The notes below the pieces were generated by a model. It was not told the origin of the DNA. It did not search any database and saw nothing but the letters and a program-made list of their open reading frames with translations. A DNA stretch of 64,000 nucleotides from Arbacia lixula (lineage: Eukaryota > Echinodermata > Echinoidea > Arbacioida > Arbaciidae), in assembly GCA_963669155.1 (NCBI GenBank), contig OZ022576.1, forward strand, positions 38,813,307 to 38,877,306. The letters run 5' to 3'. Below, in pieces: positions 10,614-60,238 of the stretch (within the stretch, counting starts at the first letter, position 1; each line of letters opens with the position of its first letter). The position numbers and the translations under genes were made by a program.

Positions 10614-13600
10614 ATGTCGTTTTCAGAATATTTTCCGTTTCCTGATTATGTCGGGTTAATCAGGATGGTCCTCGTCGACCTCCCGGCGTATTACCGCGAC
10701 GAACCATCGGAAGGCACCATCAATGAACTGCGCCTGTATTCACATCTCACATGGGGTGAAATACAAATAGCTTTTGCGATGGCTGTACTATGGACACTAT
10801 TACGAACCCTTCTCACAATTTTCGTGTTCAAGGTGAGTATGCAGACTATAACATTACTAACATTTGACTTGTGAGATGAACTAAATAAACCGTAACTTAC
10901 TAAAAGTTCAGAACAGAAGTTGAGTTACACTAAAAAAGTCTAAATTACGGGAATGTTAAAACCGTCTCATTTGGGGCATTCTTTAAATTTAATCAAAAAT
11001 GAGATATTTCTTTTTTAATGAAAAAAACAATGTAGACTCTACTTTATGAAGAAAAACTTTAAATAACAAAAGTTGGGAGCATGTGCTCTAAATTATGCCT
11101 TTACTGGGACCAGCCCGATAATGCAGTGAGCGGGCTGCCAGGCCAAGCTTAGTGCAGAGCTTTGATTCTGAAGCAACAGAGTCGAGATTAGATTTTTTTT
11201 TTTTTAAATAAAACTCTACCTCTGATCAAACTAGTACTACACATAGATTTACGGCGGATACATCCTTGAATTCAACCGTTGTTCGCTAGAACTAAGATAA
11301 TTTTAATCCATTTTGTATTTTTTTTTATTGTTTACAAACTACTGAACTAAGGAGGTTCGGAATTGCACATCAGCAGCTGCGATGATGAAGATTAAAGTTC
11401 ATGCGCATGCACCAGTTCTCATTACAATTCGTGTTCAAAGTTTTGGGAACAGCCAAGATGACAGCCTTGACAGACCTTGTTTGTTAGAAGATATGTGAAG
11501 AGGAAATATGTAACGTTCAACATTTTTGAACATTTTTATAGTAAATACACTGCAGCTCAAAGGAATTGGCAAAGGGAAAGGGAAGAGAGGGAAGGAGCCT
11601 CAGTTTTAAACCACGGAATATTTTGTCCAGTTCAGCATGAAACGCGATGCTTTAGCCTAAAAAGCATCATGTTTCATGCTGAACTAGACAAAATGTGCTG
11701 CGGTTTAAAACTGAGGCCCCTTCCCTTTCTTCCCTTTCCCTTTTCCTATGCAAGTTCCTTTGAGCTGTAGTGTACATTCAATTAAGTAAGCCATTCATAT
11801 GTGATGAATGTACTTGAAATTAGTTAATGACATTAGTACTCGGACCCGTCGTGCAAGAAAAATGATGGCGAGCACTTGGGATGCTCCTGCTTCGTGGGAG
11901 CTGTCTCGGGGCTAAATTATGCCGTGCTTATAGCTTTGCTGTTGATGAAAAGTGTGCACATATTTTCCCCCTTGCAATTTTAACTCTTAAAAAATGTTCA
12001 ATAGTTATCAGCTATAGATATATTTCTGTCATTCATGTTACTTGAACATTTATTTGAAAAATTAAATGGGTAAAGATGGGTAAACAATAAGCACATATTA
12101 TCTCTAAAACATGACACGACCCTCGGCTTGAGTCAAAATCATTGTATGTACACTACAGCTCAAAGGAATTGGCATAGGGAAAGGGAAAGGGAAGAAAGGG
12201 AAGGAGCCGCAGTTTTGATTTAAACCACGGTATATTTTATCCAGTTCAGAATAAAACATGATGCTTTTTAGACTAAAGCATCATGTTTCATGCTGAACTG
12301 GACAAAATATACCACGGTTTAAAACTGCAGCGCCTTACCTTCCCTTTCCCTAGGCCAGTTCCTTTGAGCTGGAGTGTACATGTATGGTATTAAGCTGTGA
12401 TCACCCTCTGGGTATGATAGTGCTGACTTAATCATTTGGACTCGTTGAAATAAACATGTAAATTATGCACTTCGGAAATTGTGAGATTAGATGCTGGTAT
12501 GGTCATGCACTTTTCTTATCCTATGACATAGAGTCTACAGGCTAATGACATCTTGCCTCTGGTATAATTGTGTGTACCTTAAAGACAGGTTTTCACTTTT
12601 GCAGGTAACAAAAAATGGAAGAAGACACTGTATCAGAACTTCCCTATCAATAATAGAACTGGAAACTGACTTTGAGCAAAATTTACCTATAACCTAGAGA
12701 CTGGAGAGTGCTATGTGCTATTGTCTGCTATTGCCCAAATTTCTCTTCCCAATTATGGAAATGTGGGATCAATGCCCTCTGCACTCAGCAAGTTAGTGGT
12801 ACATGTTTAGATGCAATAAAGAGAGCTCTGTGTAGTAGTAAGCAAATAATCAACGTTGGTGAAGGTGATGGGACGAACTGGCACTTCCGAGGCGATCTAG
12901 ATGTAGCTATCTTTCCGAAGCGCAGCTGAAGAAAGATAGCGTATACATTCAGATTGCCCAGTAATTGTTTGTTTCGTTGCCTGAAACCAAAAGTTGATTA
13001 TTTGCTTCATATTCGACATCTGAACCCAACTATCTATACCAAAAATTACAATTTGACGTACAAAAGTAATGTTGACTTCTCTACCTAACCCAGAGCCGCT
13101 GCCATGGGGAACATGCGTTAGGACGCTCCTTAGGACGTGTCAGTAGGAGCTAATGTCAATTGATAGTCCCATTGTAATGCACTTTTATTTCACACGTACT
13201 CAAATAATGATCACTCGTTAGGACTGTGAGGAGTGAAGAGAAAAGTACTACCACCTAGAGTGTAATGAACTTTTCTTCTCAGGGGATCAGACGGGCAAAA
13301 CTACGCTTCATCACGTGATCAACTTTTGACCAATCATGTAGCAACATTCTTACTATGTGGAATATAAAGTAAAACATTAACATTGAATTGCAAGAGATCT
13401 ATATAAACACAACAAAAAAAGTAAGTCCCCCCTAAGCAAAACAGCATAACTTTTTATTGAAAAGGTTTTGGGCAAAATAATTTGGCAGGATTGTTTCTTA
13501 ACTTATTGACTAACTTCTGTGTGAAAATCACATTAATCCAATTAGTAAGACATGAGTGGGCATATTTTAAAAGCAAAAATGTCACTTTTCAAAAGTTACA

Positions 13601-21492: not shown

Positions 21493-21540
<48 letters not shown>

Positions 21541-24500
21541 CCCCATTGCAGCCAGTGGGAAGGTATGTGGAATTGTCCAAAGTCAACCAGGCCAAGATGC
21601 CGGAGAGCGCCTGGCGATTCTTCTTCTATCTCACGTCTTGGTCGTTTGTAGCGTACGCCATGATCTACAACCACTCAGATATCCTGCGGGATCCACCCAA
21701 GAGTTTCATAGGTCGGTACAGTTTTAAACTTAAACCCTGTTTATAAACACCACTTATCTGCAAAATATGCACAACATTTGCTGCAATTTTGGTGATACCT
21801 CACCGATAGCTATATGAATAAGAGTCATGCATATATTGGCTTATTCGCTTCCTCCTTTTACGGCCTTTTCTGTGTGTATGAATGGTGTTTTAAAGGCATT
21901 GGTAATATTACAATATTATGGTATATGATTGGGACTATAGTTAACTCTTGTCATGATCAGTAATTTTACTGATTCATCGCATGATTGCAACTCAGAAAGC
22001 TTTTCTGTCAAACAAATGTAGTTGATGTTACAATAGTTTAGGGTCATGCATATATTGGCTTATTCGCTTCCTCCGTTTACGGCCTTTTCTGTGTGTATGA
22101 ATGGTATTTTTAAGGCATTGGTATTAACAATATTATGGTATATGATTGGGACTATAGTTTACTCTTGTCATGATCAGTAATTTTACTGATTCATCACATG
22201 CTTGCAACTCAGAAAGCTTTTCTGTCAAACAAATGTAGTTGATGTTACAATAGTTAAGGGTGAATGATTTCCCACGGTTTATTATTTTTATTGGAAATGC
22301 TTCAGGCAGTTCAACACACCACCTGAGAAAGTCAAATTTGCACAGTACACTAGTTTCAATGTGACAAAACATTTTGCAAGCTCTAATATGTGACTTAAAG
22401 GTAGCCCGTCCCTTTTGCAGACCTAATTCTGAAAGTTCCCTGGCTTTGTCATCATTTGAGAGAGAGTGGTTATATAATCTTTCCCTGGAATCGACAAAGC
22501 GTAATATTCAGTTTTGAGGAAATAATCTTCGATAATTGATTGAACTTTCTTTTTTTGTACCACAATAATTGTCGTAATTTCAAAAAGTCAACGGTCGGTA
22601 ATCAATTTGAATTGATTAGATGTTCATTTATTATAGTTATAGTATATAGTTATATAGTTATAGTACCTCTGACCTTCAAATTTCACAGTTGGTATCCCAA
22701 AGAAGGGTGCTAAATATGTGCAAACTTTCATGAAGTTTGCAGATGTTTGTAAAAGGGACTAACCATCTTTAAAGTTGGTTTGAGCCACAATATTCACTCA
22801 TAGTGCAATAACATGCCTGTGTGCAATCAATCACTGTCTGTGCCCAGTATGGTCGCATAAGGGTCTGTGTTGCACCAGTCTTTCCCTGTCAATGTCTCAC
22901 ATCTCTTCATCTTTGTCTTTCTCTCTCACTTTGTCACCCTCTCTCCCTCTTTTTCTCTCTTTTTCCCCCTCTCTTTTTCTCCTCCCCCTCTCTTTCTCTC
23001 CCTCTCCTCTCTCCTTCTCTCTCCATCTTCGTTCTTTCTGGATCTCTCACTATCTCCATCAATCTTGCTCTTTTCTTCTCTCTCGCTTCCTCTCACATTT
23101 GCTCTATCCCCCTGCTTTTCCCCTCATTCTCTTTCTACAGTGTCTCTCTCTCTTTTTCTCTTTCACCTTCTCTCTCACCTTCTCCCCCTCTTTCCTTCTC
23201 TTTCACCTTCTCTGTCTCTCTCTCTCTCTCTGTCTCTGTCTGTCTCTGTCTCTCTCTCTCTCGCTCTCTCTCCTTTTCATTCTCCGTCTCTCTCTCCTCT
23301 CTCTTCAGCCCTTTCACCCTCTCCATCTCCATCCATGCATCCCTTAAACACATGATTGTAATAATTGGTTTATTAGTGTACAGACATCACAAATGTAATT
23401 TCATGAATACACGCTTTCCACAGTGATTCCCTTGGCAATGAAAACCTCTATTGGTCCTACTGACAATCAAACACAGTGTGTGTGAGCAAGTGTTACACAC
23501 TCAATTAACTGGTGATGAGCTGATGATTAATGATCCACTGTAAAGTGTCAATAAAGTGGTTATTTGATTGGTTGGCTCTTGATGCAGCAAGATATGAAGT
23601 GTTCGATATGATGAGCATATTTTTGTTGCCACAACAAGCTGACCTGCAAAGAACCCTTTACTAACTTTTCCTATATTTCTCCTTCATTCTCTCTGTGCAG
23701 ACTGTGTCAATAACATGGTCATTTTAGCGTTGATTAGCTCGTGACATGGCATGACTTGGTTTGGTATTGATACAATGATTTCGTTCTCGCCGCTCGCAGG
23801 CTGGTCGGCTGACATGGAGATCCCATGGGACATCCGCACGGCCTACCTGATCCAGGGCAGCTACTACCTGCACGGCCTGGCCACGGTGCTGGTGCTGGAC
23901 GTGTGGCGGAGCGACTCCATGGTGCTGTGCATGCACCATGTCCTCACCCTCATGCTCATCTCCCTGTCGTATGCATGCAGGTACAGTACGGGGCATGTGT
24001 GGGTCATGGGCCGAGGGGGGGGGGGGGGGGTGGGGGTAGCCTGCCCTACTGCAGCAAAAGGAAGCAACTAATAAAGAGACATTTCTTGTGAATGAGCAAA
24101 ATATGTCTGTCGCTTGGCATTAATGCAACACCGCATCATGCTAGGTTGAATACATTGCAGCAAGATGGATATTTTGCGTGTATGTAGGGAGTGCTTCCTT
24201 TTATCATAGTAGAACAAAGGGGGGAGGGGGGAGGGGTGGGGTAGAGTGGGTCAGGAACACAGAGTCTCAAGGCTACTGCAGATGATGTGCACCTATCAGT
24301 CGAACGACTATATGACAGGCTGAATCAAAGGAGCCGGTCATTGGATCTGTGAAAGAAGGTGACGTCACATTTCAAGCGACTGCAAAATTGTGGCAAAATC
24401 GTGTCGTCTACGGTGGCCTTAAACTCTGTCGTATGTTGTGGCCAATTTCCAGCCTTGATGTGTATTTCAGTTCTTCAGATGTGACTTGTTGGCTTGTGGC

Positions 24501-27500
24501 CTATGGCTTATAGCCCACTTGATCGTCCAAGAAAAACATATTTCTGTTGTACATTTATTTTTGGACATTTAACTCTTTGTGCGCCATTGAGTCAATTTTG
24601 CTCTGGCAAATCACACCACTGCCATAGGGCAGGATGGAGTCAAGCAGAGAAGGAGCTCAAGTATATGAGAAACTGAATGTCTTATGACATCTTGCCTGAA
24701 TTTATGATTGACATGCATACACATATTTTGTCAAATGGTTGAGGGTTTATATCTTCGAAGGCTTCAGTTTTATTAAATAAAGAGGCAGAAGGCGGCACAA
24801 CAACATATAAATGGTGTTATAATGTGAAGTAATATTTGATAGATTGATGTATGCTTTGATGTGTGTCTATTGTACTTTTGTTTTCTCCTGCAGATATCAT
24901 TATATAGGCCTTATGGTGGTTCTGTACCATGACTTCAATGACATCTTTTTAGAGTTCTCCAAGTGCCAAATCTATTTCAAGGACCGCGGTGGCAAGAAGT
25001 ACATGATTCACGAATATCTGGCCAATGCAGGCTTTGCCGTCTTTACGATTTCATGGTGAGTTACATGAATGTATGTTAACCAATATTTTTTTCACAATAT
25101 TTGTGCTTCTGATGCAAACTTTCAAAAAAGTGCATTGATCCATATGAAACACACAAGCGCAAGATTTCTGGTGACCTCTTTACTATTACAACTGAATATG
25201 AATATCCTATGGTAATCTTTTGAATTTTTGCAGATCTTTAAATACCTACCTGTGTTACAGTGTACTATTTGACTTACATGTAAGAATGATAATAATTCTG
25301 GTATTGTGCATGTCACATTGGCATAAATGCATATCTCTACTGGCTTGATTCTTACCCTGGCTTCTGCCTATTACCCGTATCCAGCGCTAGGACCTAGATG
25401 ATCTGTTTAGATCAGGAATAAATGCTACCTGATACCCATTTTCTACCGGTACACCTGGATTGAGAGGTACAAACTCAAAAGAAAACACCTTTTCCAAGGG
25501 TGTACACACAGGGCTGGAGTTGAACCCAGCTCCCAGGATCTCTCTGCAAGAGTCAAGAGCTCTCTTCACCATAACACAGTGCCCTATTGCTACTAAAAAG
25601 GGAGATTCATATAGGAATAGTAATGATGTAACTGTTCTATGCTTGAAAATGCAAGCTTAGGAGTGAAACTGGGTAAGTGGTGGTGTAGAGGGTGGAGATA
25701 TCTAACCAGTACAATGTTAATATCTCTTTATGAATCTTTTGAGCATTTGTGGGATATGTACTTACGCTTGTCCTTTCATGTCATCTTTTTCGTGTACAGG
25801 TGTGTGATGAGGATGTACCTGTTCCCCATGAAGGTCCTGTACAACGTCCTTCCTGTGACGGCCAAGGTCTACTACGATGGCCACCTGCCCTTCGGCATCG
25901 AGTGTAACTCCATGATGTGGCTGCTCATGTGTCTGGACATCTACTGGTTTGTGGTGAGTGCATAAACAGGGCTCCACAATAGCTGATTGGTTGTGTCCAT
26001 GGTAGTTATAATGACATTGAGTGTAACTCCATGATGTGGCTGCTCATGTGTCTGGACATCTACTGGTTTGTGGTGAGTGAATTAATAGGGCTCTACAATA
26101 GCTGATTGGCGGTGTCCATGCTAGTTATAATGACATTGAGTGTCAGTCCATGATGTGGCTTCTCATGAGTGCACACATATATCTGTACTAATTTTTGGCA
26201 AGTATGTTTGACAGGTGTAGCAATTTAGATGCAAAGCCAGAATTAAGGGATTTGCACATGATATCTTGTTGCATACAGTTTTATTTGGTGTAAAGAAGTG
26301 ATCACCAGGCCCCGGAAATGCTGGTAGCATCGATGAAAAAGGGATATTTAAACCAGAAACAACTATATTATGATATTTAGTGCTTGAGTATAAAAACTTA
26401 ATTTGTGTTAAGTGATAATTGGAGTGTATGAAAAGAACTGTGCTCTGTCCCACATAGTCTGTGGACTACTTATGTCCATGTAGTGGTATGTAGGAATGAT
26501 ATCCAAGCAGAAAGTTGTGCTCATGTGTGGGTGTGTGTGTGTGTGTTTGTGTGTATGTATGTGTGTGTGCGTGCATGTGTATGTATTGGAGAAGCAATAC
26601 GTCTGATAGACGATATGATTTTTCATAGTATTAATAGTAATGAGGAGGATTTTTTCTTAATAGCAGTTGATTTTGAAAAGGCGTTTGACTCTATTTCTCA
26701 CAATTTCCTTTTCAAAGCTCTAGAATCATTTGGCTTTGGTCCGTCTTTTTGTTCATGGATTAAAACAATGCGCAATGGAATAAGTAGTTGTGTGATGAAT
26801 GGAGGTGTCTCGACAGGGTATTTTGATATTAAGCGAGGGGTAAGGCAAGGTGACCCACTTTCTCCTTATTTGTTCCTCCTAGTAATTGAGATATTAGCAC
26901 ATACAATAAGAAACGATAACGTAATCAAAGGTATAGAGTTTGGTAATTTTGAAATTCGACAAGTCTTGTACGCTGATGACATGACTTTATTTGTTAAAAA
27001 TATAAGTTCAATTTTGAGATTAAAGGATATTTTTCAGGCTTTTTTTAAATCAAGTGGGCTAAAAGTTAATATTGAAAAAACAAATGTCATGAGGTTAGGG
27101 GAAAGCATTGAGGGTTCGCAATCACTTCCCATGGGCAATAGAGTGACAGAAGTGAAAATTTTAGGAGTTTATTTTTCATTGGATATTAACATTAGGGAGG
27201 AACTTAATTATAAAGAGATACTTAGTAAAATAAAAAGGCTTCTGGGTTGGTGGAAGCAAAGGGATCTGACCATTATGGGGAAAATCCATTTACTTAAAAC
27301 TTTTGCTCTCTCCAAACTGAATTACGTCTCTTCGGCTTTAGTTGTGCCCAAATGGGTGGTAGCTGAAATTAAAAAGTTATGTTTTGAATTTATATGGAAT
27401 GGGAAAGATCGTATCAAAAGAGCGATCTGTTACCAAGATTATGGTGATGGAGGTTTAAGAATGATTGATTTTGATTTATTTGTGAAAACCCAAAGGCTTA

Positions 27501-30500
27501 TGTGGCTGAAGAGACTTCTGTATGGAGAAAGGAATATAGGATGGAAATTGTATTTTGACCATATCTTTAGGACGGTTGGGGGAAGATTTGTTTCCCTTTG
27601 CAATTATGATATGAAACTACTTACAGTCAAAGCACCAATATTTTATTTAGAAATGTTAAAAGCATGGCAGGATATGGAGAGCTGTAGGAATTTTCAAGAA
27701 GGGAAAACTAATCCAATAATTTTTAATAATAAAAACTACCTTCATAAAAACAAAATGATTTTTCATGAAGAATTGTATAAGAAAAATATTTATTTAGTTG
27801 ATCACATTCTCAATAAGAATCAAATCAGACCACTGGCATACTTTCAGAATTTAGGTCTATGTAGTGATAACATAGCTAAGATTTGGGAAATGTGCAATGT
27901 TATTTTAAAGAGCGGGAAATTTGATGGGGGGCCAGACAAATACTACTCAGTAGATGTACGAGATTTTAATATTACTTTAAAGATATCAGAAAATACGATC
28001 CTTTTGAGAGACCTAGTATCAAGAAAGGTCTACGATCATTTTATAACAGATTTGCAACGTTTATACACTTTAAAAATTCGGGATGGTCAAAATGATTTTG
28101 AATTCTCAAAAAAGGAAACTAAAGATATATTTATAAAACCCAGAATCACAACGCTTTTGTTAAAGATTAAGGAATTTCAGTACAAATTACTCCACGGAGC
28201 AATTTATACAAAAGAACATCTATTAAGATTTGGTTTTGTTGAAGACGACCAGTGTTCTTTCTGTAAACAAATGACGGAGTCATATTTGCATTTATTTTGG
28301 GACTGTGTATACAGTCAATCGGCAGCGCTCGCTCGTTCTATAGAAATCGTGAGCGTTTTATTTTTCGTCTCGCGAAATCTCACGCGCAGATTTTGCTGCA
28401 CCTAGATTATGAAGGAATTCGACATGCTCGCGAGATCTGTTGCTGGTGTCTTCTGTAAGCATACTGATCAGGATTTTTTTAGGCAGGGATTGAGATTATA
28501 TGTTTCTTAATAAATGTTTTCATTTTTTTCCGAAATCCGCAAAGGAGTTTTTATATCATGTGCTTTCAAAAACAGGCCTCAATTTTTTTTTAAAATATGT
28601 AAGCTCTCAGACCTTGCTGGATGCTGACCCTTCTATGGGTTGTACGGCAACGACAGTTACGGCTCTAAAAAGCCAATACTTCAGCGGAGATTTTGATTCC
28701 AATATTGTTTGGGCTCAAAAATAAAACATTTTTGCTATTCGTCTTCAAAGTGACGCGAGATTTCAGAAATCGTACGGACTTCGCAACCGATATAAATGTA
28801 AGCTCTCAGACTTTGCTGGATCCTGACCCTTCTACAAATTGGACGGCAACACCAGTTACAGCTTTGGAAAGCCAGCACTCTAGCAGAGAATTTGATTTCA
28901 GTTTTGTTTGGGCTCGAAAATAACACATTTATGCAATTCGTCTTCAAATTGACGCGAATTTTCAGAAATCATACGGACTTCGCAAACGATATTCGTCCGC
29001 AGGCAGCAGAAAACACGGGATTTTATTTTCAGCGAGGTAGTCGTGACCTTCATTTGTCCTCTAGAACCGCGGAAAACGTCTCCTTTTCAAACTGCGATAT
29101 CTCCATGAATTTATCATATTTTTGTACACTTTCTTTTGTAACTGTATGTTGGAGGTGGACATTTACCAAGGGTGAAAAAACATTTCATTAAAACAGGCAG
29201 AAAAATATTGCAAATTGGAGATAAATATGTGGTTCTAATAAAAAATAAAAAAAATAAAATCAACTCTTTATTTCAAATGTCAATCGCTTTTGAGCCCCTA
29301 ATATTTAGAGATCATCTGGAGGGGAATTTATTGTACTTTATGGAGATACCATTATTTTTCAACCTACCCCCATAGAAGGGTCAGGATCCAGCAAAACATC
29401 AACCATGTTCAAATCCAAAATAAGCGAGATATGACGAAGTTGTGAGCGATCCTAACCAGTCAATAATAGTCCGCGACTATGATTGGTTCACCCTTGGATC
29501 GCCGGTGGAATTTCGTTATTATTGTGGACTATGATTGGCTGGTTAGGATCGCTCACAACTTCGCCATATCTCGCTATTTTGGATTTGAACATGGTTGATG
29601 TTTTGCTGGATCCTGACCCTTCTATGGGGGAAGGTTGAAAAGTAATGGTATCTCCATAAAGTACAATAAATTCCGCTTCAGATGATCTCTAAATATTAGG
29701 GGCTCAAAAGCGATTGACATTGAAATAAAGAGTTTATTTTAATTTTTTTTAATTTTCATTAGAACCACATATTTATCTCGAATTTGCAATATTTTTCTGC
29801 CTGTTTTAATGAAATATTTTTTCACACTTGGTAAATTTCGACCTCCAACATACAGTTACAAAAGAAAGCGCACGAAAATATGGTATATTCATGAAGATAT
29901 CGCAGTTTGAAAAGGAGACGTTTTCCGCGGGTCCAGAGGTCAAGTGAAGGTCACGACTACCTCGCTGAAAATAAAATAAGCGTATTTTCCGCTGCCTGCC
30001 ATTTGGCTGTATATGTCAAGCCCCTATGGCAGGGAGTGATTGAAAGATTTGGGCTTGTAGAACTACAAAACGTAAAGTGGGAAAATGTTCATGTTGGAAT
30101 ACTAGGAAACTCATTTAGGATTAAGTGCTGCAATACATTAATTTTTACAATTAAGTATATCATATATCGGTCAAGGTCAGAGGGTGCAGTTCCTAACTTA
30201 GATAGATTGTTTAAAATAATATTGGAATATAAGGATGAGGAAAAAGAGTTGGCTATAAAAAGAAACAAACTATGTAAACATCTACAAAAATGGGAAAGTA
30301 TCAAATTACAACCAGTGTCAAGACTAGGCCTGAGTCGAATCGATTATTAAGCCGGTGTTCGATCGAAGAAGTCGAACTCCGATTTCGTTTTGATGAATTC
30401 GATGCATCGACGAAATTACCAAATTGACTGGAAAACACAAAATCTTTTGTTTGATAGTCCTGTTATACACAATTTATCTTCATATTTTCACAATTTTAAT

Positions 30501-33157
30501 TTGCTTACTTGATTCCTACTCTCTTTTGTGAGTTTTGCAGGTAACGCATCAAGAGAATGAACAGGTCGCTCGATGATCAAGCAGCTACTACATACTACTA
30601 GTACTTGGATTTGATTCGTTCACTATTATATACAGCGCAACGCGCACACAACGAACAATTGTCCATAGACTTTGTACAACGGATAGCATCGTGTGTTGTG
30701 AAAACCCGGAAATACAGTGGCAATCGTGCGTAAGGCTCATTTGCATACACGCTGCCGACGTACAGACTAATAGCGTCTCCGTACAGCGATTCGGAGACCA
30801 CTGATTGGAGCATCGCGTAGATCACGTCATAACCACGTGGTCGCCAAAATAGTGATAACGATATCCGGTCACGTTGTCTGAAACCCGGAAGCGATTTTTC
30901 GACGCATTAGGGTTACGGAAAAAAAAAATCGGAACCCGGAAGCTGATTGACTTTCTGCCCGTTGCAATAGCTCTCTACAGATTCCAACCTACATACATGT
31001 ATACGATGCCATATTGACGCTAATTTGTAAGATTTTGACGGAAAAACAAGAAGTAATCGAAATTCGCTTACATGTGCAGTATCGGTGAGAAAATAGATTC
31101 TCCGAGAATACCTTTCATAATTCATATAAAATATAGGAAAGTGAAATTCTAGGTCGATTTTGGTACGAGGTGATAGAGAATTGCACGCTTGTTTCGGTGG
31201 AATACTATGTGGGGAAATGGAAGGATTGCACTGCGTATGCTTACTATATTTTCATTCATAAATTGGCTCTTGGCAGTGGCTGGGTGACGTCATGTATCGA
31301 TGCATCGATGTTCGATCGGCGCAAAGCCATCGAACACCGGTTTCTGAAAAAATCGATATGACTCAGGCTTAGTCAAGACATTTATCTTCAGATTCAATTC
31401 ATCAAGACTGAAAGCAGTCGGTGGGTGCTGGTGTGTGTGGGTGTGTGTCGTGTTGTCGAGGGATGTGTGTGCAGATGTATTTTTTTTTTTTTTTTTTTTT
31501 TTTGGGGGGGGGGGGGTCGGGTCGGGGTGATAAAGGTTTATGTGTGCATGCATGTCTTCTTTTTTTGTTTGTTTTCTTTTTCATATATATGTGTATATAA
31601 GGGGTTTCATTCTTCCTTGTTTTGCTCATTAACTGATGTTTTATCAAAGAAAATTATGCTGTAGAAACAAAATGAAGACTTGTATTATATTATTTTGCTT
31701 ATATTGATTTATATACGGATGTATTGATGCTTATTTTGAATGAAATCCCCAATAAAAACATGAAAAAAAAAAAAAAAAGTATGTATGTGTGAGTGTGTGT
31801 GCATGTGTGTATATGTGTGTGGGTGTGTATCCCATGGTTGATTAATCATTTCCATATTTTTTGCCCTTGAGTCGTAATTGGATTTGTGGTTGCATAATGC
31901 TGATTCTGCGAACATACATTAAGTAATTAATTTGAGGCCTGTGCAATTAATTTGTGTGGATCATCGTATAGTGCTTTTATTTAAAGGTAGTTATCCACTA
32001 TGTCATATTTAAAAGCATGTGTTATGGTACAAAAGTTATGAAATATTGAAAAACTTATTTAACAATTCCTTATTTTAATCTTTCAGGTTTTTTTAGATAT
32101 ATTTGAAAAAAGAGACCTGTTTATGAATGTGCATTTTTGTCTTAAAGTAAAGTGAATGCATTAATCTCCCTCGTTGTGTAGATGTAGCTGGCACACGTAT
32201 ACATCAGTGCATATCTCTGTCATTTTCTTGCATCGCATTTGATCTCCCCTTGCAGTACATTGTGATCTTCCTGTACAAGATCTTCACCAAGGAGCTGTCA
32301 GAGTTTGAAGACATCCGTGAGGACAATGAGCAGGAGGAAGAAGGAGGCAAGAAGCCTCTGAAGGAGCAGAAGAACGGACCCAAGCATGAAGCTGGGGACA
32401 GCATATCCAATGGGTGAGTTTGACCTTGGCATTGCCATAGTAGAGCAAGCATCTACAACTTGCCTCCTTCACAGCGGAATGGTACCCTGGTGATAAGTGT
32501 AATTGAATAAAAGAAGAAAATTGAAAAACAGATTGGATTACAAGGTTTGAGAAATATCAGAGACATGACATTGAAGTTGTGAATATGGGAAAATCACTTT
32601 TACTAGTACCTAAAGACAGGGTGTCCCTTTTGAAGGAAAAGTGCCTTTCACATTGGGTTTAAAAAAATTGTGAAGTTAGAAAGATCGCGAAGTAAGAAAA
32701 ATCGCAAAGTTAGGGGACAGGGATGACAGGACCATTCGACTTTTGGTACGGTTGCTAGGCAACTTTCACCCTAACTTCACAATTTTCTAACTTTGCGATT
32801 TTTTAAGCCCAATGAGAATGGCACTATAGACTGCCAATATTACTGGCACACAAAGGGCTCATGATACCTTGTGTATGGGTCCACATGCCCTCGGGCAACA
32901 GTGAATGACTTCACTTTTGTGGACCCTGACCCACACGCTGTCCCTTTCTGTCATCTATATTATATCGTAATGTGTCCTTTGTTCTGTTATCTGTGTATCT
33001 TCTTTTTATGATGTTGTTATATGTAATGTTAGTATTATGGTGAAATAAATAATGATAATAATAATCACATACTTGTCTCCTTTACAGCATTGTGAAAGAT
33101 GCTCCAGCAATGAACGGCAATGGCCTGAAGAAAAGACACCCTGTAGAAACATCGTAG
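10614..33157 (+). CDS. CERS1: Ceramide synthase, CERS1 type (TLC/Lag1 domain)
   Basis: Seven coding exons join in frame: 10614-10832, 21552-21711, 23800-23980, 24894-25055, 25800-25953, 32256-32413 and 33088-33157 (367 aa; human CERS1 is 350). Ceramide synthases are ER membrane enzymes that N-acylate sphingoid bases with acyl-CoA. Exon 1 gives an N-terminal segment with a hydrophobic helix (about 48-72). Exon 2 carries KMPESAWRF, typical of CERS1. The Lag1 motif spans about 168-207, with the catalytic pair H172-H173 and the conserved aspartates D200 and D203 in LYHDFNDIFLE. There is no homeobox domain, unlike CERS2-6. The C-terminal tail is acidic, then lysine-rich. The start has A at -3 and an in-frame TAA 75 nt upstream. 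Intron 1 is 10.7 kb. Intron 5 (6.3 kb) holds a nested transposon cluster, and the end of exon 5 is tandemly duplicated. Confidence 0.95.
11548..11772. mobile_element. Foldback MITE, family A copy 3 (TA-flanked)
   Basis: Complete palindrome starting CACTGCAGCTCAAAGGAATT and ending with the complement, with TA on both sides. It lies in CERS1 intron 1, 0.4 kb from another complete copy. Confidence 0.85.
12151..12376. mobile_element. Foldback MITE, family A copy 4 (TA-flanked)
   Basis: Starts CACTACAGCTCAAAGGAATT and ends GAGCTGGAGTG, with TA on each side. The internal arms carry the family's AAACCACGGTATATTTT block. It lies in CERS1 intron 1. Confidence 0.85.
13406..14167. mobile_element. 762-bp foldback element (TA-flanked)
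   Basis: The termini are AACACAAC followed by a poly-A stretch and GTAAGTC, mirrored at the right end as GACTTAC, a T run and GTTGTGTT. Both ends abut TA. The arms extend for about 200 bp (for example CAAAATAATTT.. and TGACATTTTT around 13590 and 13975). A non-autonomous TA-targeting DNA transposon is the best reading. It has no ORF. Confidence 0.75.
14499..14581 (+). other. miRNA-like hairpin in CERS1 intron 1
   Basis: A 5' arm with TGTAATGTCATCATTGCTAT pairs with a 3' arm with ATAGCAATGATGGCATTACA over about 31 bp. Read on the + strand there are two G-U wobbles and no bulge, and the loop is about 20 nt. The size fits a pre-miRNA, and sense-strand intronic placement would allow processing from the CERS1 transcript. 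The near-perfect stem is equally typical of a very short foldback element. Confidence 0.35.
15111..15270. mobile_element. Foldback MITE, family C copy 1
   Basis: The termini CATTCTCATTGGGCTTA and its complement enclose mirrored AAAATCACAAAGTTAG arms and a loop containing GGTACGGTTGCCAGGCAACT. A second copy with the same loop lies at 32649-32820. Both are in CERS1 introns. Confidence 0.75.
16030..16500. repeat. Cluster of degenerate short repeats (TTAGCCCCGGACTATTTCTT type)
   Basis: The motif, in forms such as CTTAGCCCCGTACTATC, CTTAGCACCGTACTATTTC and TTTAGCCCCGGACTATTT, recurs about seven times at irregular spacing. The cluster ends in a C run and CTAAGGAAATTTTTGCC. It looks like the interior of a decayed repeat element. 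No clear termini were found. Confidence 0.55.
16891..17073. mobile_element. Foldback element with GGTGTTTCACC ends
   Basis: Two arms of about 75 bp (TGGTGTTTCACCAAGCTG, then GTAAGTTACGAACGACTTTA and GATCCCTTCTTGTGCTAAAT) are mirrored almost perfectly around a short loop near 16980. The near-identity of the arms suggests a recent origin or self-correction. It lies in CERS1 intron 1. Confidence 0.8.
18984..19354. mobile_element. 370-bp foldback element
   Basis: The outer ends TAAAGGGCATATACTGTACT and its complement start arms of about 160 bp, including ATTGATAGCAATCTTCTTGC and GAAGCTTGCTGAA, mirrored after a centre near 19170. The few mismatches are single substitutions. Confidence 0.8.
19379..19480. 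repeat. Short inverted repeat AAGGGATAGTCCACCCT
   Basis: AAGGGATAGTCCACCCTAAA at the left pairs with AGGGTGAACTATCCCTT at the right, with a loop of about 65 nt. It resembles the longer element at 34070-34487, so both are probably members of one foldback family. Confidence 0.6.
21492..21551 (+). promoter_or_regulatory. CT microsatellite forming the exon 2 splice acceptor tract of CERS1
   Basis: About 45 nt of uninterrupted CT dinucleotide runs to 21536 and is followed by TTGTTCCCCCATTGCAG and exon 2. The microsatellite supplies the polypyrimidine tract of the intron 1 acceptor. Confidence 0.8.
21822..22257 (+). repeat. Tandem duplication, 219-bp unit x2
   Basis: The block starting GTCATGCATATATTGGCTTA at 21824 is repeated at 22043, with a few substitutions and small indels. 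It covers TTCGCTTCCTCC, ATGATTGGGACTATAG and CTGTCAAACAAATGTAG. It lies in CERS1 intron 2 and shows no sign of coding. Confidence 0.85.
22910..23330 (+). repeat. Pyrimidine-rich low-complexity block
   Basis: About 420 bp of almost pure C and T (CTCTCT, TTTCTC and CCCTCT mixtures) in CERS1 intron 2. The long Ser/Leu/Pro-rich open frames through it are composition artefacts. Confidence 0.9.
24049..24209. mobile_element. Foldback MITE, family B copy 2 (TA-flanked, internally shortened)
   Basis: Starts CTGCAGCAAAAGGAAGCAA and ends GCTTCCTTTTATCATAG, with TA at both sides. At 161 bp it is shorter than the copies at 1067 and 60247, and the missing part is internal. It lies in CERS1 intron 3 directly after a G run. 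Confidence 0.65.
25901..26172 (+). repeat. Tandem duplication of the CERS1 exon 5 end with its splice donor
   Basis: The last 53 nt of exon 5 plus the GTGAGT donor and 60 nt of intron are repeated at a period of 119 bp: unit 1 at 25901, unit 2 at 26020, and a partial, more diverged unit 3 at 26139. The exonic part and donor of unit 2 are identical to unit 1 (donor at 26073). No acceptor precedes unit 2, so it is not a duplicated exon but an extra copy of the 5' splice site region. Confidence 0.93.
28312..30009. mobile_element. 1.7-kb foldback DNA transposon nested in the LINE
   Basis: The element starts CAGTCAATCGGCAG and ends with the complement of CAGCCAAATGGCAG. A TATA duplication lies at 28308-28311 and 30010-30013. 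Deleting the element and one TATA restores the LINE reading frame, which fixes the boundaries to the base. Inside are two direct 199-bp repeats, then a giant hairpin with arms 29003-29472 and 29526-29999. It has no transposase. A 4-bp duplication with CAG ends does not settle the superfamily. Confidence 0.88.
28597..28995 (+). repeat. Two 199-bp direct repeats inside the foldback element
   Basis: ATGTAAGCTCTCAGAC starts both units (about 28597 and 28796). The units share GCTGGAT.CTGACCCTTCTA, TTCGTCTTCAAA and CGGACTTCGCAA. The GGATCCTGACCCTTCTA segment also recurs in both hairpin arms, near 29380 and 29610. Confidence 0.85.
30325..31371. mobile_element. hAT-type non-autonomous transposon nested in the LINE
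   Basis: The terminal inverted repeats TAGGCCTGAGTC..ATCGAT (left) and TAAGCCTGAGTC..ATCGAT (complement of the right end) are bordered by a perfect 8-bp duplication, GTCAAGAC, at 30317-30324 and 31372-31379. TAGGCCTG-like ends with an 8-bp duplication are characteristic of hAT elements. The sub-terminal CCGGTGTTCGAT and GATGCATCGA motifs are also mirrored. The 1,047-bp interior has no transposase frame. Confidence 0.9.
32649..32820. mobile_element. Foldback MITE, family C copy 2
   Basis: Same arms and loop as 15111-15270 (TTTTGGTACGGTTGCTAGGC in the loop, AAGCCCAATGAGAATG at the right end). It lies in CERS1 intron 6. Confidence 0.75.
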
Positions 33158-42500: not shown

Positions 42501-45500
42501 ATATCCAGAAACCACAATCCTAGGATGTCACGCAAGTCCTGATAATATCGTTAGGGTTGCTATATCAAAAATTTTCTCTGAGCAGTTATTTCTATTCTAC
42601 GATCTACCTCACTAATCCCCTTACTAAAAACCAAACAATTTAAATGCAGTTGATGCACATATATGCCAGCACATTTTATGTGCTTTTTTAAAAATTTTTA
42701 ATGTGTTGCGAGTCACAGTGGAATGGCCAATGTGGAGAAAACTTTTAAGAAATGTAATTGTTTGCATTGTGTAGTGATCCATGTATGTTTTTATCATACA
42801 AAATGCCTGTAGCTCAAGGAGCTCCAAAGCAGTGTGCAGTCCGGGATTCTCTCGCCCAAGGAAGAGGGGCATCCAATCCCCTGATGGCGTATGATCGTGC
42901 CACCCACTGGTGCTACGCAGATTATAAATATATGGCACAACTCTTCAGTCATTGCCCTAGTCTGCTTGAGGTATGGCAGAAAGAACACTATATTTTTAGC
43001 ATTGATAGCATTTCATTGAATGATGAATATATCTCCTCACATTTTATTTGCAGCGTTATTTGCCAGGAGTATGGCAACAATCATCCATTGAGAAAAGGGA
43101 TGCAAAAATATTCTTCCTGGAAATAAGTACATTTTCTGTCTACAATTCCATATTTATTTTAATGCCAAAAGTATGATAACAGGATATGGGTTTTCCAGGT
43201 TATTGGCAATGCTTCTGTATCTAATGTCTTACAAAGTTGCCCAACTTTCCATAATCAACTAGTTTTTCCTAGAAATGAATACCTACTAGTGCAGTTCCTG
43301 TCTCTTTTTCTTTTGTTGCCAGGAAGTTAGATGGCAAGATGTGGGTTTCCCAGGTTACGATGGTCATGAGAGCACCATATGGATCGGGAGTGAAGGTGCC
43401 AACACCCCGTGTCACCAAGATTCATATGGGTTCAATCTGGTGGCTCAGATAAGAGGCAGGTATAAATCAAGAGATACATGTCTATCATGATGGATTCTAT
43501 AGTCTTTTAATTAATGTTATTTAGATGATCCAATTTTAGATTACTGGTTGCTTATCTTGTATGTTTATTTGTTATATTTTTGTTTTTAAATGAAATAAAA
43601 GTTATGGACCCCAAACCAGTGCCCCAAAACATAAAGGTTTGTGATCAATTGTAAATTTGAAAGACAAATTCTGATTGGTTACTGGTCAGTCTTTTGAACA
43701 AAGAGCGCATGTAACAATGGTGTTGATTGGTCATTGACATTTTTCGATTGAATGCAAACCTTTATGTTACGAGGCCTGATCAGGAAAGTAAACTCAGTCA
43801 CTTTCCTGCAAGAAGCTTCATTATCTTAATTATGTTAACACATTATATTATATCTTTAATCAAATCAAAACGATTTGTGCTATTGAAAGTTTGTATACAA
43901 TTTCAATGTGAAAAGTTTCATTATGTACCTTTGAGCTTATAGACCAAATCAATACAGGTTATTGTACAATATATAACACCAACACCACAGGAAGCATATT
44001 TCAAAGATTACTTGATTGTGCCACTGGCGGTATGGTCTTTCCATTTGTAATCTCGTACAGTGGGCTGGTGACTTTGCAAGAATATGTGATACCGGTAATA
44101 GGTGGACCAAGTGTATTACAGAATGGAGACCATGGTTGGGTTCAAGACACAGGACAGGCAGAAGCTAAGTTGGAGTGATGAGCTCATAAAGTTGATAGGC
44201 ATTAAATGGATAGCAACAGCACATGACAGATATCTTTGGCATCAACATGGAGAAGCCTTTGACCTACAGTGGGCCGATCAAGGCTGATGATGATGATGAC
44301 AGTTTACCTAAACAACCTTCTCTCTATTCCCATTGCTTTTCTGTCGCAGAAAGAAGTGGCACCTGTTTCCCCCGTCTCAATCGGCCCTGATGTATCCCAC
44401 CAGACTCCCCTATGAAGAATCCAGTGTCTTCAGTCAGGTGGACGTCAAGTCACCCGACCTGTCTCAACACCCAAAGTTTGGGCGAGCCACGCCCCATGTG
44501 GTAGTCTTGCATCCAGGAGATGTTCTCTTTGTCCCGAAGCACTGGTGGCACCATGTGGAGAGCCTGGATGTGTCCATCTCCATCAACTGCTGGATGGAGG
44601 CTGTGAGTACCTTGGCCCTGTTTCATAAAGAGGGAGTTGAAATAGATGGCAATCAATTGCAAAGTTCTATCAGTCACAATTCTCCATATATTGCAAAACC
44701 ATCCTTGCTTTTTACTGCAAATCTTAGCTCATAAATGTATAATTCATCAATCATATAGCACCATATGCTCCCACAAGATATGATCAATATCCATGATTAC
44801 CTACATTTTATGATTGTTATCTATGCCATTTTTTTTTGTGATAGAGATTTATGAATGATACCAATCGTATGTTGGATTTATCGATGGTACAATCTGTTGC
44901 AAATTTTTGTGGGCCCTATCCTGCAGAAACCCCTTGGCCCTCTTAGGTTGAGAAATATTCATTTTTTGTTCTCTATCTATGCATTGCAACTGTCTTTACA
45001 TCCATTTGAGTATTGTCAGTCTTTAGGAGAAATGGATAGATGAATACCCAAAATGTTGAGAGTACCGGTAGTCACTTTTAACCTGTCAATATCATGGTCA
45101 AACCCTACAATTTCACTGGTTGTGCCTTCATATTTGACTCAAAAGAGAATTTCATTTGACTTGATACAATATGTGGCGAGAAATGTCTTCATTAGATTTT
45201 TGGTCAGAGATGTTTCAGGTCATATCCGAAAATGTGACTCCTACTGTCATTTAATTTCAAATACTTGACAGAATTTCATCACATATGATAAGATAATGGA
45301 TGACACTAAGTGGACAATAACTGATTAGGTGTTCGTCAGACATGTCAAATGTCAAATGAAATAAAATTAAAATGTGTTCTAGCCCTAATTCAGAATCTTT
45401 TTGAGGCATGTGGCAAGCAAATTATAAGGGTGGCGATACTCCAGTGTTTGTGCTGGAAGGTGAAGGCATACCAGTAAACTGCTTACTGTCAATTCTATTC

Positions 45501-59635: not shown

Positions 59636-60238
59636 GGAATTGGATAGATACTTTTTTCACAACAGAGAATGAGACAGAAACTTAATAGAGAAGAAAAATG
59701 CGAGGGAGGAAGGGGTGGTGGTGGTGAAGGTGGAGGTGGAGGTGGTGGTGGTGGAGGTGGTGGTGGTGGTGGTGGTGGAGGGATGCCATCCCATAGCATA
59801 ACAACATGATTGGTTTTATCCTGCTTAGTAACTGACCAATAACATAGCTATTATGCATTCAAAACATATGGAATTGGATAGATACTTTTTCACAACAGAG
59901 AATGAGACAGAAACGTAATAGAGAAGAAAGATAGGAGGGAGGAAGGGGTGGTGGTGGTGGTGGTGGTGGTGGAGGGATGCCATCCCATAACATAAGAACA
60001 TGATTGGTTTTATCCTGCTTAGTAACTGACCGATAACAGGTATTATGCATTCTTAACGTATGGAATTGGATATATACTTTTTTTCACAACAAAGAATTAA
60101 ACAGAAACATAATAGAGAAGAAAAATGGGAGGGAGGGAAGGGTGGTGGTGGTGGTGGAGGGATGCCATCCCATAGCATAACAATATGATTGGTTTTATCC
60201 TGCTTAGTAATTGGCCAATAACATATTTTTTATGCATT
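59636..60238 (+). repeat. Three tandem units of about 180-230 bp with GGT tracts
   Basis: GGAATTGGATAGATAC starts units at about 59638, 59870 and 60061. Each continues through ACAACAGAGAATGAGACAG, a GGTGGTGGT tract, GGGATGCCATCCCATA and ATGATTGGTTTTATCCTGC. Unit length differs mainly by the GGT tract. It is directly followed by a family B MITE. Confidence 0.85.

Follow-up and report, generated by a model that had tools for sequence, protein, structure and literature searches.

Which of two sequence-identical 5′ splice sites would end exon 5 of a ceramide synthase gene of Arbacia lixula, and what would become of the message if the second were chosen? The question is raised by a 119-bp tandem array at the exon 5/intron 5 boundary, in a window of 64,000 nucleotides (the whole stretch of DNA analysed, from contig OZ022576.1, to which all coordinates refer). 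The answer reached here, which is held to be probable, is that an ordinary duplication left a spare donor behind, with the original site (donor 1) dominating and its copy (donor 2) rarely used or unused.

Regarding the gene, seven coding exons were joined, with consensus splice sites at the six introns, into an intact reading frame of 367 residues that passes through donor 1:

10614..10832, + strand, ceramide synthase coding exon 1, from the ATG (joined reading frame); donor AAG/GTGAGT
21552..21711, + strand, ceramide synthase coding exon 2 (joined reading frame)
23800..23980, + strand, ceramide synthase coding exon 3, with the Lag1p-type HH region (joined frame; TLC domain by Pfam)
24894..25055, + strand, ceramide synthase coding exon 4 (joined reading frame)
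25800..25953, + strand, ceramide synthase coding exon 5, 154 nt, with donor 1 at 25953/25954 (GTG/GTGAGT)
32256..32413, + strand, ceramide synthase coding exon 6 (joined reading frame)
33088..33157, + strand, ceramide synthase coding exon 7, 70 nt, with the stop codon (joined reading frame)

Exon 6 is not the final one; coding exon 7, at 33088-33157, comes after it. Exon 5 is flanked by introns of 744 nt (intron 4) and 6302 nt (intron 5), and its GC content is 0.53, versus 0.38 and 0.37 in these introns.

As for the identity of the product, a TLC domain (PF03798) was found by Pfam at residues 88-295 of the 367-residue protein (E 2e-32), and it was the only match up to an E value of 0.001, with no homeobox; the six distinct matches of a PDB sequence search were to yeast Lac1 and Lag1 and to human CerS6, while NCBIfam gave no family match for this protein. 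Judged by these matches, the gene product is a ceramide synthase of the Lag1/TLC family. The label CERS1 is a tentative one, given because the homeobox match is absent and because the protein is presumed to be closer to CERS1 than to CERS2-6.

The array at the end of exon 5 was placed by TRF at 25896-26167, with a period of 119, 2.3 copies and a score of 467; alignment carries its end to 26170, and repeat finding and direct comparison agree with TRF. It consists of the following units:

25896..26014, + strand, repeat unit 1: 58 nt from the end of exon 5, followed by 61 nt of intron, the first 6 of which belong to donor 1
26015..26133, + strand, repeat unit 2: the copy of the exon end, donor 2 at 26072/26073 and the adjoining intron copy
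26134..26170, + strand, unit 3: a partial copy of 37 nt, without a donor

This is a real tandem repeat and chance is excluded: the match score at an offset of 119 was 120, whereas five Markov-1 shuffles of the window reached at most 12-13 over offsets of 60-400. The period and copy number given in an earlier note on this DNA, over the exon end and its donor, were thus borne out by TRF and by direct comparison; the repeated part of the exon is its last 58 nt, of which the final 54 are identical, and not the 53 nt proposed there. Units 1 and 2, described as identical, are so over their longest shared run of 61 nt (25900-25960), and have diverged in the remainder. In all, 8 of the 119 sites differ between them (93% identity), one among the 58 exonic positions, none in the six of the donor and seven in the further 55 of the intron, and unit 3 departs from unit 2 at 4 of 37 sites. 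Over the 37 nt common to the three units, the specific changes number one in unit 1, none in unit 2 and four in unit 3. The sole exonic difference is synonymous in unit 1 (ATC/ATT), and units 2 and 3 agree there against unit 1; therefore, it may date from a change in unit 1.

These figures bear on whether the second copy could be false, produced during assembly from two haplotypes or from a mis-joined read. Haplotypes of a very diverse species could conceivably diverge by the overall 6.7% seen here; however, three units with graded divergence (8/119 and 4/37), sharp ends and a short period, in a window that has other tandem arrays of similar period, speak against an artefact, which is considered very unlikely.

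The possibility that the unit is a dispersed element was rejected, since its matches are confined to the array itself: when unit 2, its exon part and its intron part were searched for in the window, only the array was recovered, apart from three matches of 13-16 nt to the intron part (E 0.09). Among the seven coding exons, exon 5 is the only one with extra copies in the window at an E value of 1e-3. A continuation of unit 3 beyond 26170 as a decayed copy whose donor had been deleted, considered on account of a match to TGAGTGCA, was also discarded, the alignment having a P value of 0.39 against shuffles; the other three queries gave P values of 0.44-0.68. Rfam, at its gathering thresholds, and ARAGORN found no RNA gene or tRNA in the whole window, and a distant search with 25801-26172 had no match among phage sequences, the only ones covered, which says little.

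Tandem duplications of this sort are common in this DNA. With a period of at least 100, TRF listed five arrays in the window (2022 bases in total), three of them within the span of the ceramide synthase gene, and an ungapped scan added further, weaker arrays near 40.1 and 59.7 kb. Placed at random within the gene, a 119-bp unit would include one of the six donors in about 3% of cases; given this figure and the frequency of the arrays, duplications of a splice boundary are to be expected now and then genome-wide.

Other features of the window were recorded along the way. A 217-bp tandem duplication in intron 2 (21819-22261) begins about 108 nt past the exon 2 donor and is wholly intronic, and a 199-bp one lies in intron 5 (28597-28992, 84% matches); within the window, repeats are most densely clustered at 59653-60223, where GGT-rich and 185-233-bp tandem repeats overlap. 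A perfect (CT)21 at 21494-21535 ends 16 nt upstream of the start of exon 2 (21552), adjoining the polypyrimidine tract, and a change in its length might alter the splicing of exon 2. Intron 5 also holds, about 260 bp past the exon 5 array, a stop-to-stop frame of 657 residues (26432-28405, + strand) that matches zf-RVT (E 1.6e-7) and the reverse transcriptase family RVT_1 (E 4.8e-28); it is a non-LTR retrotransposon whose 5′ end is probably truncated. Finally, 44312-44734 (+ strand) matches Cupin_8 (E 7.5e-27) and JmjC, as an exon of a JmjC-type gene located downstream on the same strand, which we presume to be HSPBAP1-like.

As for its age, the duplication had been thought recent and perhaps polymorphic. 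This is doubtful, because the units differ at 7 of the 55 positions derived from the intron, a divergence of about 0.14 substitutions per site (Jukes-Cantor); the figure argues against a very recent event, unless gene conversion has blurred the divergence.

Regarding its strength, donor 2 is equal to donor 1, and the same donor sequence occurs twice at the exon end, as in a tandem-duplicated pair of competing 5′ splice sites:

26070..26078, + strand, donor 2 9-mer GTG/GTGAGT, the same as at donor 1 (direct comparison)

The 9-mer GTGGTGAGT is found at 25951-25959 (donor 1) and at 26070-26078 (donor 2), preceded in both cases by the same 54 exonic nt, in agreement with the earlier note, which had placed the second donor in the sequence context of the real one. 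On an approximate matrix, both donors score 9.83, while those of exons 1, 4 and 6 reach 12.0, 10.0 and 8.9; lower values, 5.0 and 5.7, belong to exons 2 and 3. In the 6302 nt of intron 5, donor 2 is the only site that scores at least as high as donor 1; there are two such sites in intron 1 and none in introns 2, 3, 4 and 6. On the whole + strand of the window they number 14, four of which are the donors of exons 1, 4 and 5 and the copy of the latter. Being the lone site of equal score in intron 5, donor 2 is, by this scoring, not one among many chance donors. In a fold of 25800-26300, computed in this single context, the mean unpaired value was 0.56 at donor 1 versus 0.24 at donor 2, a difference in predicted accessibility that favours donor 1.

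If donor 2 were used, exon 5 would measure 273 nt rather than 154 nt, and the frame would read WFV-VSA-stop, with a predicted product of 295 residues:

25963..25965, + strand, TAA in frame upon use of donor 2 (…WFV-VSA-stop; joined frame)

The reading of VSA followed by a stop, already proposed in the earlier note, holds in the joined frame and would make the message non-productive. The stop ends 107 nt upstream of the exon junction. In vertebrates, a stop exposes the message to NMD when over 50-55 nt separate it from a downstream junction, and the distance here exceeds that limit, as a poison-exon-type (AS-NMD) switch would require; hence the donor-2 message would be an NMD target, if this animal obeys the vertebrate rule. 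The product would share its first 292 residues with the normal protein and keep nearly the whole TLC domain. It was expected to be deprived of the last membrane segment and the tail: the tail would indeed be lost, whereas the segment would not be removed as a whole but split after WFV, so that only the second half of this last hydrophobic stretch would disappear (maximum 19-residue hydropathy 1.37, versus 2.16 in the normal protein).

The choice between the two donors depends on how the exon is recognized. Exon definition is favoured by the long introns, the short exon (154 versus 273 nt) and the higher GC content of the exon, and by exon definition the donor nearer to the 3′ splice site of exon 5, that is donor 1, should dominate. 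The proposed sequence of events is that a local 119-bp tandem duplication, of an ordinary kind, happened to cover the junction of exon 5 with intron 5 in a functional gene, so that a spare 5′ splice site of the same sequence came to lie 119 nt downstream of the first; exon 5, short and placed between long introns, would be recognized across the exon, with donor 1 winning and donor 2 used rarely or never. Any donor-2 messages would be cleared by NMD, if the 50-55-nt rule applies here, and with their removal the duplication would be nearly neutral, which would let the array persist. Donor 2 would then be noise, probably a largely ignored leftover.

The closest experimental precedent points in the same direction. 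In PMC9225289, five minigenes assayed in HeLa cells under exon definition carried identical donors 52 nt apart and introns of 365 nt, and splicing took place at the upstream donor only; among human events with near-equal donors the upstream one was preferred in 60%, the long-long intron class included, to which the introns of exon 5 (744 and 6302 nt) belong, while about 60% of all 4,171 human events favour the downstream donor. The same source, on Reed and Maniatis, states that intron-defined substrates choose the downstream of two donors. The minigene precedent and the long-long class of exon 5 tell against the role of decoy or switch that had been suggested for donor 2.

A regulated use of donor 2 was weighed against this reading. 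In that case, SR proteins and factors of the hnRNP A1 type would decide the balance between the two competing donors, and the degradation of donor-2 messages by NMD would tune the amount of ceramide synthase. Such tuning would draw on the shared 9-mer and 54 nt of exonic context, on the standing of donor 2 as the only equal of donor 1 in intron 5, and on the early stop 107 nt ahead of the junction; in addition, SRSF1 and hnRNP A1 are described, in the part of PMC5585400 at hand, as shifting donor choice to intron-proximal and intron-distal sites, respectively. It would also be in line with the distribution of differences between units 1 and 2, at 1 of 64 sites in the exon-plus-donor part versus 7 of 55 in the intron-derived part (Fisher, two-sided P 0.024), boundaries that were picked after the data had been seen; the longest identical run of 61 nt has a P value of 0.022. 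However, unit 1 is a coding exon, for which reason a null with unit 1 constrained is the fair one, and there the signal is gone (P 0.14; 0.026-0.040 if the lone difference is charged to unit 1). What is left of the preservation is a weak hint, which may equally reflect constraint, gene conversion between units 1 and 2, or chance. With this, and with the exclusive use of the upstream donor in the nearest published test (PMC9225289, as far as its available text goes), a regulated switch is judged unlikely. It is very improbable indeed that selection has kept the exon copy and donor of unit 2, while the rest decays, because a timed use of donor 2 as an NMD switch is useful; if true, a single tandem duplication of the 3′ end of an exon would have sufficed to create a regulatory splice switch.

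The duplication could also have been turned into new coding sequence, with donor 1 joined to an AG in unit 2 (26020-26021), a 68-nt intron removed and unit 2 retained as a 51-nt cassette ending at donor 2. The outcome would be in frame and stop-free, with 384 residues, 17 of which (CNSMMWLLMCLDIYWFV) would be added to the last membrane segment, and a tandem duplication over a splice boundary, at its 3′ side, is reported to have made an intron in a potato RdRp (PMC4974935, in the part seen). Against it, the three AGs have only 7, 9 and 7 pyrimidines among the 16 upstream positions, versus 12-14 of 16 at the six real acceptors; the introns would measure just 68 nt, or 29 and 52 nt for the other AGs, and an acceptor at 26005 would lead to a stop at 293 residues. 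The duplicate thus offers no usable 3′ splice site with a polypyrimidine tract, such as intron gain calls for, and a cassette exon or new intron was set aside as extremely improbable, there being no acceptable acceptor within reach. In this context, the accessible text of PMC2809761 proposes, from work in Drosophila, that NMD shelters weak new introns.

In conclusion, an ordinary duplication with a dominant donor 1 remains the preferred explanation, and the array would be a further instance of a duplicated, competing 5′ splice site, a kind already known; among the papers listed by the literature search, none was seen to describe this duplication or any doubling of a donor in a CERS gene of an animal. 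If donor 1 alone is used, the locus is a natural minigene test, in which the donors are identical, at least 54 nt of exonic context are shared and position is the essential difference, and it can test the cross-exon proximity rule in an animal beyond vertebrate cell lines. Use of donor 2, on the other hand, would show how an unproductive splice form can arise from a duplication at once.

Among known systems, the minigenes of Carranza, Shenasa and Hertel 2022 (PMC9225289) are similar in that identical donors compete for one 3′ splice site on an exon flanked by long introns; they differ, from what the available text describes, in being engineered, with donors 52 nt apart, and assayed in human cells, whereas the present case is natural, with a spacing of 119 nt and at least 54 exonic nt copied too. 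The potato RdRp (PMC4974935, same part) likewise has a short tandem duplication across an exon-intron boundary, with copies differing at some sites; there the 3′ side is duplicated and the new intron was seen by RNA-seq, while here the 5′ side was copied and, for want of an acceptable acceptor, a new intron is not expected. The AGGT-duplication model (Rogers 1989; ATP2A1, Hellsten et al. 2011; both as cited in the available text of PMC4974935) also obtains an extra splice signal by tandem duplication, but from a copied exonic AGGT, while here an existing donor was copied, without a convincing 3′ splice site. Finally, CERS2 is another ceramide synthase with non-productive splice forms, according to the accessible text of PMC7876150, namely the early-stop AS2, which includes intron sequence and for which the authors infer probable NMD, and the skipping of exon 8; that case concerns another paralogue, in human tumours, and has no duplicated donor in the text at hand.
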